A DNA stretch of 50,707 nucleotides from positions 1 through 50,707 of the forward strand of contig CAJFFX010000006.1 in NCBI GenBank assembly GCA_904374485.1, given 5' to 3'. Numbering within the stretch: the first letter of the stretch is position 1; every line of letters begins with the position of its first letter. This DNA comes from Candidatus Pseudoscillospira falkowii. Lineage in GTDB: Bacteria > Bacillota > Clostridia > Oscillospirales > Oscillospiraceae. Position numbers and translations under genes: made by a program. The notes under the pieces were generated by a model. The model was not told where the DNA came from. It did no database searches and saw only the letters and a program-made list of their open reading frames with translations. This document shows, piece after piece, positions 2,489 to 41,238 of this stretch.

Positions 2489-2690
2489 CACTAACATCCC
2501 AAAATTGCAAATTTTGCACGTTTTGACGAACCTATCCCTGCATTTTTGACGAATTATGCAGAATCGAACTTATTTTCCTGCTCCATCCGCCTTTCTGCAT
2601 CAAATTTCCATCAAAATTTCGTCCACCATGCGCGTCAAATCCTCCGTCCCAGGCAGACAAAAGGGTGGGGACAGCCCTTAAAACGATTGA

Positions 2691-2728
2691 AAAGACCTCG
2701 CCGCGCTTTTGCGCGGCGAGGTCTTTTT
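2691..2728. terminator. Strong hairpin terminator, works on either strand
   Basis: A 15-bp perfect stem (2692-2706 with 2711-2725) with a TTTT loop, flanked by A-runs on the left and T-runs on the right. It is the last of three hairpins between the ferredoxin gene and pyc. The 2331-2913 gap (583 bases) holds only these hairpins and the pyc promoter and leader. Confidence 0.75.
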
Positions 2729-2754
2729 ATCCTCCCCCCAAAGAAATGCGTCAA

Positions 2755-14494: not shown

Positions 14495-15316
14495 ATGATA
14501 AATTTTGAATTCCAGGACCACTATACCTTTGAGGACCTGCGCAGGATCGTGGCGATCCTGCGCCACCCGGGGGGCTGCCCCTGGGACCGGGAACAGACCC
14601 ACGAGAGCCTGCGCCGCTGTACGCTGGAGGAGACCTGCGAGGTGCTGGAAGCCATCGACCGCAAAGACGACGCGCTGCTCTGCGAAGAGCTGGGAGATCT
14701 TTTATTGCAGGTGGTGTTCCACGCTTCCCTGGCCGAGGACGGCGGCCGCTTCACCCTGGACGACGTGGCCGACGGCATCTGCAAAAAGATGATCTACCGC
14801 CATCCCCACGTCTTCGGCACGGCGCAGGCCGACACCTCTGAGCAGGTGCTGCAGAACTGGGACGTTCTCAAGCGTGCAGAAAAAGGCCAGACCAACGATA
14901 CCGACACGCTCCGCGCCGTGGCGCGCACGCTGCCGGCCCTGTGGCGGGCGGAAAAGATCCAGAAAAAGGCGGCCAAGGCCGGCGTCACGGTGCCGGACAC
15001 CGCCGCAGCAGCGGACGAGCTGTCCGCCGCGCTGGAGGCGTTCCGCCGTGCTGAAGCAGAAGGCCGCGGCGTCCGGCAGGCGCTGGGAGAGGTGCTGTTC
15101 GCGGCGGTGGCTGCGGCGCGCCTGGCGGGCGAAGACCCCGAGGAGGTCCTGAACGAGGCCAGCGACGCCTATATCGCCCGCTTCGCACTGGCCGAGCAGG
15201 AAGCCGCGCGGCAGGGCCGCGCCCTTTCAGACCTCGCACCGGAGGAAACGGTCCGGATATGGAAACAGACAGAACAACAACAGGATGTACGACAGGAGGA
15301 AAACAGACATGAATAA
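14495..15316 (+). CDS. mazG: MazG nucleoside triphosphate pyrophosphohydrolase
   Basis: House-cleaning enzyme (273 aa) hydrolysing NTPs to NMP and pyrophosphate. The first MazG domain (about 10-120) has the entry [16 protein letters not shown] and the metal-binding helices [11 protein letters not shown] and [14 protein letters not shown]. The second domain (about 170-250) is recognisable ([33 protein letters not shown]), but its first metal helix reads ALGE instead of ELGD, so it looks catalytically weakened, as in many two-domain MazG proteins. This is the yabN position of the Bacillus order. The last codons overlap the hup start by eight bases. Confidence 0.95.
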
Positions 15317-15584
15317 ACAGGAACTGATCAGCGCTGCCGCCGAAAAGACCGGCTTTTCCAAAAAGGATACCGAGGCCATGCTGAACGCCGTGCTGGACAC
15401 CATCGTCAGCGCCCTGGAGGAGGGCGAGAAGGTGCAGCTGGTGGGCTTCGGCTCCTTCGAAGTCAAGCAGCGCGCCGCCCGCATCGGCCGCAACCCCAAG
15501 ACGAAGGAAGCCATTGAGATCCCCGCGTCCAAGGCCCCTGCCTTCAAGCCCAGCAAGGCCCTCAAGGACGCCCTGGCAAAATAA
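15309..15584 (+). CDS. hup: DNA-binding protein HU
   Basis: Histone-like nucleoid protein, 91 aa, the standard length. It has [14 protein letters not shown] at the start, the [11 protein letters not shown] turn, the DNA-contacting arm [22 protein letters not shown] and the C-terminal helix. ATG 15309 has a perfect AGGAGG site seven bases upstream; an earlier in-frame ATG has none. Placing hup inside the mazG-rqcP-yabP series ties a highly expressed nucleoid protein to the sporulation/division string. Confidence 0.97.
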
Positions 15585-15588
15585 GGCC

Positions 15589-15843
15589 ATGCGGCTGGAC
15601 AAGTACCTGAAGGTCTCCCGGCTCATCAAGCGGCGCACCGTGGCCAACGAGGCCTGCGACGCCGAGCGCGTCAGCGTCAACGGCCGCGTCCAGCGGGCGT
15701 CCTACGACGTGAAGGTGGGCGACCGGATCTCCATCCGCTTCGGCGAAAAGACCGTCACGGTGGAAGTCCTGGCCGTCAGCGAAACGGCCGGCAAGGCCGA
15801 CGCCGGCGCCCTGTACCGCGAAGTGGCCGCCGCAGATTCATAA
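15589..15843 (+). CDS. rqcP: S4-domain RNA-binding protein RqcP (YabO)
   Basis: Small (84 aa) S4 RNA-binding protein. RLDKYLKVSRLIKRRTVANEAC and VNGRVQRASYDVKVGD are the S4 core. In Bacillus RqcP works with RqcH on stalled 50S subunits, holding peptidyl-tRNA during C-terminal alanine tailing. It starts four bases after the hup stop, so translation is coupled. The Hsp15 name applies to longer proteobacterial relatives; the size here fits RqcP. The rqcH gene is not in the window. Confidence 0.92.
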   Translation: MRLDKYLKVSRLIKRRTVANEACDAERVSVNGRVQRASYDVKVGDRISIRFGEKTVTVEVLAVSETAGKADAGALYREVAAADS

Positions 15844-15850
15844 AGCGAAC

Positions 15851-15896
15851 GATCCCTTCATAAACTGAGGTTGAGCCTTGAGTTTATGGAGGGATC
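15851..15896 (+). promoter_or_regulatory. Hairpin covering yabP ribosome binding site
   Basis: Left arm 15851-15866 and right arm 15881-15896 pair over 16 consecutive positions with a single G-U, and three more pairs (AGG/CCT) are possible in the loop. The yabP Shine-Dalgarno GGAGGG (15888-15893) lies wholly inside the right arm, leaving only TTTC between the stem and the ATG. There is no T-run of terminator quality. The simplest reading is a translational block on yabP when the message is read from upstream. Confidence 0.7.
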
Positions 15897-15900
15897 TTTC

Positions 15901-16185
15901 ATGATGTACGGAGAAAACAGCCCCCAGGCCGTTCAGCACGCGCTGCGCCTGGAGGGGCGGGAGCAGCTGACTGTGTCCGGGGTGGAGGACGTGGGCCGCT
16001 TCGACGAAACGGGCATCGTCATGACCACCAGCGCCGGCACGCTGATCGTCACCGGCAGCAATTTGCATATCGGCCAGCTGAGCCTGGAGGGCGGGGAACT
16101 CCACGTGGACGGGCGCATCGATTCCCTGGCCTATGAGGACGAACCGGCCCGCGGCGGCGGCTTCTTCTCCCGCCTGTTCGGCTGA
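15901..16185 (+). CDS. yabP: Sporulation protein YabP
   Basis: 94 aa, YabP/YqfC family, a beta-rich protein. In Bacillus it is made in the mother cell during sporulation and is needed for spore cortex or engulfment steps. Visible core: LRLEGREQLTVSGVEDVGRFDETGI, TLIVTGSNLHIGQLSLEGGELHVDGRID. The start ATGATG follows GGAGGG by about seven bases; that site is buried in a hairpin. The next gene yabQ starts two bases after the stop. Expression is expected to be sigma-E dependent in relatives, but I cannot point to a clear sigma-E promoter here. Confidence 0.93.
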   Translation: MMYGENSPQAVQHALRLEGREQLTVSGVEDVGRFDETGIVMTTSAGTLIVTGSNLHIGQLSLEGGELHVDGRIDSLAYEDEPARGGGFFSRLFG

Positions 16186-16187
16186 CC

Positions 16188-16847
16188 ATGGAGATCTACA
16201 TTGCCGAGCAGGTGCGCCTGCTGTGCGGCGCGGCAGCCTTGGGCGCCGCTTTGGGACTGGCCTACGACCTGCTGCGTGCCGTGCGCAGGCGCATCCCGGC
16301 CCTGCTGATCCCCTGCGACCTGCTGTTCTGCGCCGCCGTGGCCGCCGGCGTCATCGGCTACGCCCTCGCCGCCGGCGACGGGGAGCTGCGGCTCTATCTC
16401 CTGCTGGGAACGCTTTTGGGCAGCGTGTTCTATTTCTGCCTCTGCAGCGCGCCGCTGCGCCCGCTGTGGGACTTCTGGATGGATGCGGCGGTGTCCTTCG
16501 GCCGCCTGAGCGTGCTCCCGCTGCGTCTGGGCGCAAAATTTTTGCAAAAAATCGCCCGGCGGGCGAAAAAACTCTTTCATTTTTGGAGCAAATGGGTTAA
16601 AATATCTAATTACAGATGGGAGTTTGTCCTGATCCACCGCCAGCGGGAAAGGAGCCGGTCACATGAAGCGCGAAAAACGGGAAAAGGCAAAAGCGCCCCT
16701 GGGCGCAGCCGGCATCCTGGCCAGGGTCATCCTGATCGTCCTGCTGGTATACGGCGCCGTCACGCTGTACAACCTGCAGCAGCAGATCCAGTCGGCGAAG
16801 GAACAGGAGACCCAGCTCACCGCCCAGGTCCAGGATCTGGAAGATAG
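16188..16847 (+). CDS. yabQ: Sporulation membrane protein YabQ with long overlap into divIC
   Basis: Polytopic membrane protein needed for spore cortex in Bacillus. Residues 1-130 have the family pattern: EQVRLLCGAAALGAALGLAYDLLRAVRRR, then hydrophobic segments near 45-62 and 66-85, and a basic amphipathic tail ending ...AKKLFHFWSKWVKISNYRW near residue 144. The frame then stays open for another ~75 codons of R/G/P-rich, low-quality sequence and stops only at 16847, overlapping divIC by 185 bases. The tail looks like out-of-frame divIC, so the true functional protein probably ends near residue 150 and the natural stop may have been lost by mutation or sequencing error. Confidence 0.8.
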   Translation: MEIYIAEQVRLLCGAAALGAALGLAYDLLRAVRRRIPALLIPCDLLFCAAVAAGVIGYALAAGDGELRLYLLLGTLLGSVFYFCLCSAPLRPLWDFWMDAAVSFGRLSVLPLRLGAKFLQKIARRAKKLFHFWSKWVKISNYRWEFVLIHRQRERSRSHEARKTGKGKSAPGRSRHPGQGHPDRPAGIRRRHAVQPAAADPVGEGTGDPAHRPGPGSGR

Positions 16848-16971
16848 AAACAGCGCGCTGCGCGCCGATATCGCCGCTGCCGGCGACCAGGAAAAACTGG
16901 AGGACGTAGCGCGGGACGAACTGGGCATGGTGAAAAGCGGCGAAAAGGTGTTTTACGACACCAATTACTGA
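16663..16971 (+). CDS. divIC: Septum formation initiator DivIC/FtsB
   Basis: 102-aa single-pass divisome protein. Basic cytoplasmic N-terminus (1-15), one transmembrane segment (about 17-37), then a coiled coil with heptad hydrophobics (LQQQIQSAKEQETQLTAQVQ..., about 40-78) and the short DivIC-like end VARDELGMVKSGEKVF. AAGGAG lies nine bases before the ATG. It scaffolds FtsL/DivIB at the septum. It lies inside the yabQ open frame in another reading frame, and its codon pattern is the clear coding one of the two. Confidence 0.92.
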   Translation: MKREKREKAKAPLGAAGILARVILIVLLVYGAVTLYNLQQQIQSAKEQETQLTAQVQDLEDRNSALRADIAAAGDQEKLEDVARDELGMVKSGEKVFYDTNY

Positions 16972-21818: not shown

Positions 21819-21857
21819 AAAAAGGGATGGGACCGTGCTCCGGTCCCATCCCTTTTT
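21819..21857. terminator. Bidirectional terminator after sbcC
   Basis: 17-bp stem (21819-21835 with 21841-21857), loop TGCTC, with T-runs on both strands. It ends the sbcDC transcript on the minus strand and can stop reads from the zinc-ribbon gene on the plus strand. Confidence 0.88.
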
Positions 21858-29844: not shown

Positions 29845-29892
29845 CAAGCGCGCGCAAGCCAAAAGGCTTGCGCGCGCTTGGTTTTATCTTTG
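29845..29892 (+). terminator. Terminator of DUF2975-HTH operon
   Basis: 16-bp perfect stem (29845-29860 with 29865-29880), loop AAAA, followed by GTTTTATCTTT. Confidence 0.85.
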
Positions 29893-35171: not shown

Positions 35172-35900
35172 TTATTTCCCGGCAGCGTAATAGCCTCCAT
35201 ATTTAGAAATCTTTTCCAGCCCTTCCTGGTCCAGCACCGTGATGGCACCCCGGGCACACTGAATGAGACCCTTGTTTTTAAAGTCCGCACAAATGCGGGC
35301 AATCTGAATGCGGGAAGCATTGACTGCGGAAGCCAGCTCGTCTTGGGTCAAAAAAATCGCATTGCTTCGGGTATCCCCCTGTTGACGGCGATACCGCAGA
35401 AACAGGCACAAAAAAGTTGCCAAACGCGCCGACGCATCACACACGCTGTTGCTCTCGGCATCAAAACACATCAGGCGGAGCACACTGCCGTAATAGCGCA
35501 CCAGATCCTCCATAAACCGCGGATCCGCTTTGCCCGCAGCACGCAGTTCCTGCCAGCTCACCGGCAGCACTTCCACCGGTGTGATGCTTTCAATGGTCAC
35601 CACCGCACTCTTTTCCCCGCACAAGCAGTCCATGGCAAAAAATGTATTGTTCCGGTGGTAGCCTAAAATCCGGATATACCCATTGGGATTGACCGTATAC
35701 ACCTTCACAATGCCCTCCAGCAGAAAGTACATCTGCGGACTGATTTCTCCGCTGCGGCTGAAAATCGTGTCCTTTGAATAGGCATATTTTGTTGTGCAGA
35801 TCGGCAGGAATAAATTCCGATAGGCTTCCATATCATTTTCGATGACATAGCTGATCTGCGGATCGATGATTGTCTGTGTCTGTTTCATGCTCACCATCAT
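35172..35900 (-). CDS. Crp/Fnr-family regulator
   Basis: 242 aa. Cyclic-nucleotide-binding-like beta barrel (about 25-140: SRSGEISPQMYFLLEGIVKVYTVNPNGYIRILGYHRNNTFFAMDC) and a winged HTH (about 165-235: LTQDELASAVNASRIQIARICADFKNKGLI). It has no FNR-type N-terminal cysteine cluster, so the inducer is unknown. Three in-frame ATGs lie close together at the start; ATG 35900 is the first and the third (MKQ) is possible. It is divergently transcribed from a flavoenzyme gene, and the palindrome in the 211-base gap between them is its probable site. Base composition is clearly AT-richer than the window average. Confidence 0.9.
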   Translation of the reverse strand: MMVSMKQTQTIIDPQISYVIENDMEAYRNLFLPICTTKYAYSKDTIFSRSGEISPQMYFLLEGIVKVYTVNPNGYIRILGYHRNNTFFAMDCLCGEKSAVVTIESITPVEVLPVSWQELRAAGKADPRFMEDLVRYYGSVLRLMCFDAESNSVCDASARLATFLCLFLRYRRQQGDTRSNAIFLTQDELASAVNASRIQIARICADFKNKGLIQCARGAITVLDQEGLEKISKYGGYYAAGK

Positions 35901-38108: not shown

Positions 38109-38147
38109 GAAAGCGGGCGGCGCACAAAATGTGCGCCGCCCGCTTTC
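38109..38147. terminator. Hairpin between flavoenzyme and dus genes
   Basis: 17-bp perfect stem (38109-38125 with 38131-38147), loop AAAAT. It sits between two convergent genes; the T-tracts are modest (CGTTTCCTC on plus). Confidence 0.65.
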
Positions 38148-41154: not shown

Positions 41155-41198
41155 GGGCGCGCCCTTGGGCACAGACCGCGCGCCAACGCAAAAATATT

Positions 41199-41238
41199 CC
41201 CCGTCGCGCCGCATCCTGCGGCGCGACGGGGATCTTTT
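41199..41238 (+). terminator. Terminator of small membrane protein gene
   Basis: 14-bp perfect stem (41199-41212 with 41218-41231), loop ATCCT, then ATCTTTTTTT. A second hairpin CCGCGG...CCGCGG with TTTCTTTTTT follows near 41250-41280, a double stop between convergent genes. Confidence 0.85.

Follow-up and report, generated by a model that had tools for sequence, protein, structure and literature searches.

A hairpin at the predicted sporulation promoter of yabP as a probable insulator against read-through from rqcP

Hairpins that hide a Shine-Dalgarno (SD) sequence on one transcript and not on another are known from both a phage and a bacterium. In phage T4, the long early transcripts of gene e, soc, and I-TevI hide the SD sequence, and translatable RNA comes from late promoters that lie within the hairpin's 5' strand; for the T4 lysozyme, the effect of the hairpin is about 100-fold (PMC3014915, PMC2988022). 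In B. subtilis, as summarized in a passage of PMC5942855 that cites Masuda 1988 and Sun 1991, a hairpin of 20 or more bp before sigG (spoIIIG) has been proposed to block translation of spoIIGA-sigE read-through RNA, and this hairpin cannot form on the RNA made from sigG's own sporulation promoter. The yabPQ genes of B. subtilis are sigma-E-controlled and SpoIIID-repressed (PMC517825).

The window analysed here is the whole 50,707-nt stretch of DNA from Candidatus Pseudoscillospira falkowii. Its source is an incomplete MAG, whose nearest named relatives are Oscillibacter-like Oscillospiraceae. The Pfam order MazG, HU, S4 (RqcP), YabP, YabQ, DivIC, S1 confirms the gene names, and the gap of four bases given for hup-rqcP in the initial annotation is indeed 4 nt. 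The yabP gene lies 57 nt behind the growth genes mazG-hup-rqcP (Table 1). The hairpin that occupies this interval is quite probably a promoter-straddling insulator, which hides the yabP SD sequence on read-through RNA. Farther downstream, the yabQ frame and divIC (16663-16971) share 185 nt, and most relatives checked likewise have a long overlap there; the out-of-frame overlap may be conserved as such, or high GC may have kept an alternative frame open.

Table 1. Coordinates of genes, hairpin parts, and predicted promoter elements at the yabP locus
Feature	Position	Strand	Remarks
mazG	14495..15316	+	Pfam PF03819; vegetative-type gene upstream
hup (HU)	15309..15584	+	Pfam PF00216
rqcP (S4 domain)	15589..15843	+	Pfam PF01479; stop codon inside -35 element
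-35 element TCATAAA, predicted sigma-E-type	15838-15844	+	spacing to -10 conserved in relatives; overlaps rqcP stop
Hairpin left arm GATCCCTTCATAAACT	15851-15866	+	predicted on read-through RNA only
-10 element CATAAACT, predicted sigma-E-type	15859-15866	+	end of hairpin left arm
Hairpin loop, 14 nt	15867..15880	+	predicted transcription start inside
Hairpin right arm AGTTTATGGAGGGATC	15881-15896	+	contains the SD sequence
yabP SD sequence GGAGGG	15888-15893	+	read from the sequence; 7 nt before ATG 15901
yabP	15901..16185	+	Pfam PF07873; second in-frame ATG at 15904
yabQ	16188..16847	+	Pfam PF09578; follows yabP in the predicted sporulation unit

Hairpin and predicted promoter upstream of yabP

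The initial annotation described 16 consecutive pairs, one of them G-U, enclosing the GGAGGG of yabP. This description is exact: the single G-U pair is U15858-G15889, and the SD sequence lies wholly within the right arm. Folding of the transcript from 15841 to 15910, as that annotation had proposed, returns the same hairpin as the minimum free energy (MFE) structure, at -32.1 kcal/mol with a z of -7.0, and none of 200 shuffles is as good. Counting stems of 15 or more pairs that contain no more than one G-U and enclose a loop of 3 to 30, we find 6 in the window, whereas ten Markov-1 random windows matched in dinucleotide make-up contain none at all. The 7-mer GGAGGGA forms an anti-SD duplex of -9.9 kcal/mol. 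An origin of the hairpin stretch as a repeat element was rejected, as the stretch is single-copy in its own genome. Five more long perfect or near-perfect hairpins are found elsewhere in the window (2688-2729, 21819-21857, 29845-29880, 38109-38147, and 41198-41232); at least the last of these carries a T-run, which makes it a probable terminator.

The initial annotation had overlooked a predicted sigma-E-type promoter whose -10 element lies within the left arm. Sigma-E promoters have a -35 element and a CATA-type -10 element separated by a spacer of 13 to 15 bp, and the motif TCATAAA-N14-CATAAACT agrees with this consensus in both boxes and, at 14 bp, in spacing. The promoter is thus predicted to be of the sigma-E type, although the motif alone is also compatible with sigma-K. 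The bipartite pattern has 2 matches in the window versus 0.10 expected. In the whole genome it has 15 matches versus 10 for a reversed control, which is weakly above background in what is a rough comparison. The second match in the window (35809-35836) has no obvious downstream gene or hairpin. Among related loci, the same two-box motif precedes yabP in 116 of 126 (scored as above the 95% null level), with a median best score of 19.0 versus 11.5 in shuffled sequence, and the two CATA-type cores are almost always exactly 20 bases apart. From the position of the -10 element, transcription is predicted to start some 7 nt farther on, at ~15873 (about 15872-15876), in the loop of the hairpin, so that the sporulation transcript would lack the left arm.

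The other sigma-E-like sites of the genome were compared in the same respect. Few of the 15 have coupled arms, and the yabP site has the strongest coupling (23.2). The second strongest (16.3) is that of L134 (G000:C4:38789-38816, minus strand), in which a left arm, CCCCCCG, matches as complement the SD region CGGGGGAGG of the downstream gene, which we take to be SipL/DUF3794-like. The coupling of L147 is not above that of its own shuffles, and its meaning is uncertain. No arm coupling is seen at the match that precedes a D-Ala-D-Ala carboxypeptidase-like gene.

Accessibility of the SD sequence on long and short RNA

Because the number of pairs spanning the transcription start in MFE folds separated native from shuffled sequences poorly, opening energies, arm-coupling energies, and ungapped arm scores were used instead. 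For RNAs whose 5' ends lie at or upstream of 15850, the computed cost of opening the yabP SD sequence is 17-20 kcal/mol; for 5' ends at 15864-15878, it is about 5-6 kcal/mol. By the same calculation, any 5' end from 15858 onward frees the SD sequence, with a leftover cost on the short transcript (~5.5 kcal/mol) that is above zero. Across 59 loci with an adjacent rqcP, the median SD opening cost is 11.2 on the long RNA versus 4.7 on the short RNA.

These values suggest how the hairpin would work. RNA polymerase arriving from mazG-hup-rqcP would produce an RNA with both arms, on which the 16-pair hairpin would bury the SD sequence, and yabP would hardly be translated. In the mother cell, RNA polymerase carrying sigma-E would use the promoter whose -10 element is in the left arm; this transcript, beginning in the loop without the left arm, would expose the SD sequence and allow YabP and YabQ to be made.

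Ribosomes that finish rqcP might instead melt the hairpin, in which case yabP would be translated together with rqcP. The rqcP stop codon, just 7 nt before the left arm, is well placed for such translational coupling. However, a ribosome terminating there is expected to reach only about 15853, and for an RNA that begins at 15854, the SD sequence still takes 13.9 kcal/mol to open. In addition, the rqcP-yabP distance in relatives ranges from about 43 to 150 nt. Coupling of this kind is therefore extremely unlikely.

Complementarity of the arms among relatives

Coupling energy was calculated between a left part, containing the promoter, and a right part, the leader with the SD sequence, and was compared with two controls, one in which the 14-nt spacer alone was shuffled and one in which the left part was taken from another genome. 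Where rqcP lies directly upstream (n=78), native coupling is 14.8 versus 10.8 with shuffled spacers (p 1.6e-12) and 8.8 with swapped left parts (p 6e-13), phylogeny being outside the model in both tests. Where rqcP is not adjacent (n=104), the corresponding values are 8.4, 7.8, and 6.7. The excess is greater at the rqcP-adjacent loci than at the others (p 1e-6). When one representative is taken from each cluster of similar leaders (43 in all), which is a partial remedy for the kinship of the genomes, p stays at ~1e-8. The ungapped arm score likewise falls from 19.2 in native sequences to 15.5 +/- 0.34 when right arms are permuted, none of 200 permutations exceeding 16.6. Part of the complementarity is compositional, arising from C-rich spacers and GGAGG right arms, and for this reason single genomes often fail to reach significance (versus shuffled spacers, 40% fall below the 5% level). 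Together, these comparisons reveal complementarity beyond that due to composition. The orientation of the upstream gene at loci without an adjacent rqcP, which was based on the longest ORF, was too noisy and was left out. In seven genomes of other families, rqcP is ~1.1 kb upstream of yabP, an interval with space for another gene.

The covariation that the initial annotation had proposed to look for is present across relatives. The CATA of the -10 element is invariant and its partner nearly fixed, while at spacer positions and at the variable -10 positions different lineages use several kinds of pair (AT, CG, TA), the variable -10 positions covarying with the right arm. Members of the genus have nearly identical arms and promoter boxes, and their loops and flanks have diverged.

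This pattern bears on two other readings of the inverted repeat. Sequestration of an SD sequence in a hairpin is typical of RNA thermometers, riboswitches, and protein-melted hairpins, any of which might control yabP on one long transcript. Arm sequences that vary freely between lineages are unlike ligand or protein sites, however, and the loop and surroundings are unconserved even among close relatives that keep arms and promoter. A covariance-model search gave no Rfam match at E up to 1, and a start in the loop would make a switch unnecessary; such a device is very improbable here. Of the three routes of release that the initial annotation had offered, a start inside the hairpin is thus the one that gains support, from a predicted sigma-E-type promoter whose expected start falls within 15866-15885, the range named in that annotation; no evidence was found for an RNA switch, given the Rfam result, or for a melting helper.

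The second reading is that the repeat is a DNA operator lying over the sigma-E promoter, for SpoIIID for example, with RNA pairing incidental. The SpoIIID repression of B. subtilis yabPQ (PMC517825) would fit, as would the SpoIIID-site-like motifs (GGACA or TGTACAA type) that stand beside the -10 element in many relatives. In the window no such motif stands beside the -10 element, and the arms lack GGACA. Moreover, arms that differ widely between genomes and yet remain complementary would be unexpected for a protein site, and the pairing tracks the rqcP neighbour. It would be quite surprising if an operator accounted for the repeat.

Versions of the slot and comparison with known systems

An insulating hairpin of the kind proposed here is not the only structure found between rqcP and yabP. 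With classes that depend on thresholds set by us, the 78 rqcP-adjacent loci comprise 47 that sequester the SD sequence without a T-run, 12 with a T-run, and 19 with neither; for the 104 loci without an adjacent rqcP, some of which also carry the hairpin, the numbers are 34, 4, and 66. Six genomes, including a sister of the same genus, combine an SD hairpin with a T-run after it. In six other rqcP-yabP genomes, the hairpin straddling the promoter is an intrinsic terminator, and the SD sequence lies outside it.

These versions raise the possibility that the hairpin of the window is a degenerate intrinsic terminator of mazG-hup-rqcP, which overlaps the yabP promoter and SD sequence by chance and blocks transcription. 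The same-genus relative has TTTTT after the stem, five further relatives have T-runs, six more have a plain terminator at the slot, and the rqcP-yabP interval contains no other terminator. Yet in the window the tail reads TTTCATG, in agreement with the initial annotation, which had noted the absence of a terminator T-run; a terminator scan has no entry here, and a GC-rich stem followed by a T-run is not found. Furthermore, rqcP-adjacent relatives with an SD hairpin mostly lack a T-run (47 versus 6). A chance relic of this sort is unlikely. Nevertheless, because several relatives show a T-run or a terminator, the block may act on transcription in addition to translation. What these versions most likely share as a function is insulation against read-through from rqcP, by whichever means; as we envisage it, the slot can hold an SD hairpin with or without a T-run, or else a terminator.

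The initial annotation could name no such description for yabP, and none was found in the literature on yabP with Shine-Dalgarno and sporulation; for other genes the architecture is already known (PMC5942855, PMC3014915). What yabP offers is an unusually broad comparative record, spanning many gut spore-formers, in which an isolated B. subtilis curiosity, sigG, becomes a comparative pattern, with one slot and two mechanisms, hiding of the ribosome site or ending of transcription. The proposal would explain how a sporulation gene can sit close behind growth genes without being produced in growing cells. On balance, we lean toward a wider reading, namely that in Oscillospirales and neighbouring clostridia the yabP sporulation promoter has repeatedly been placed inside a hairpin that insulates it against rqcP read-through, with lineages switching among SD sequestration, termination, and both; this would be a recurring, perhaps general, solution for sporulation genes behind vegetative operons. 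From the proposed insulator one can further predict which sporulation genes of clostridia should appear transcribed yet untranslated in vegetative RNA-seq.

As with hairpins of the T4 gene e and sigG type, the SD sequence of yabP is predicted to pair, on long transcripts, with an arm lying upstream of it, the promoter start falls between the arms as judged from the motif, and complementarity is kept by covariation. Like sigG, yabP is predicted to have a large hairpin on read-through RNA that is absent from the RNA of its own promoter. However, sigG is another gene in another organism, with a sigma-F/G forespore promoter and sporulation genes upstream, whereas the genes upstream of yabP are mazG-hup-rqcP. 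The 5' arm of the yabP hairpin holds promoter sequence, the predicted -10 element, as with gene e, soc, and I-TevI, but the T4 cases use a phage late promoter rather than a sporulation sigma factor and are not homologous. Finally, like the intrinsic terminators between operons, one of which six relatives use at this very position, the yabP hairpin is proposed to block read-through; unlike them, the hairpin of the window has no T-run and holds the SD sequence.
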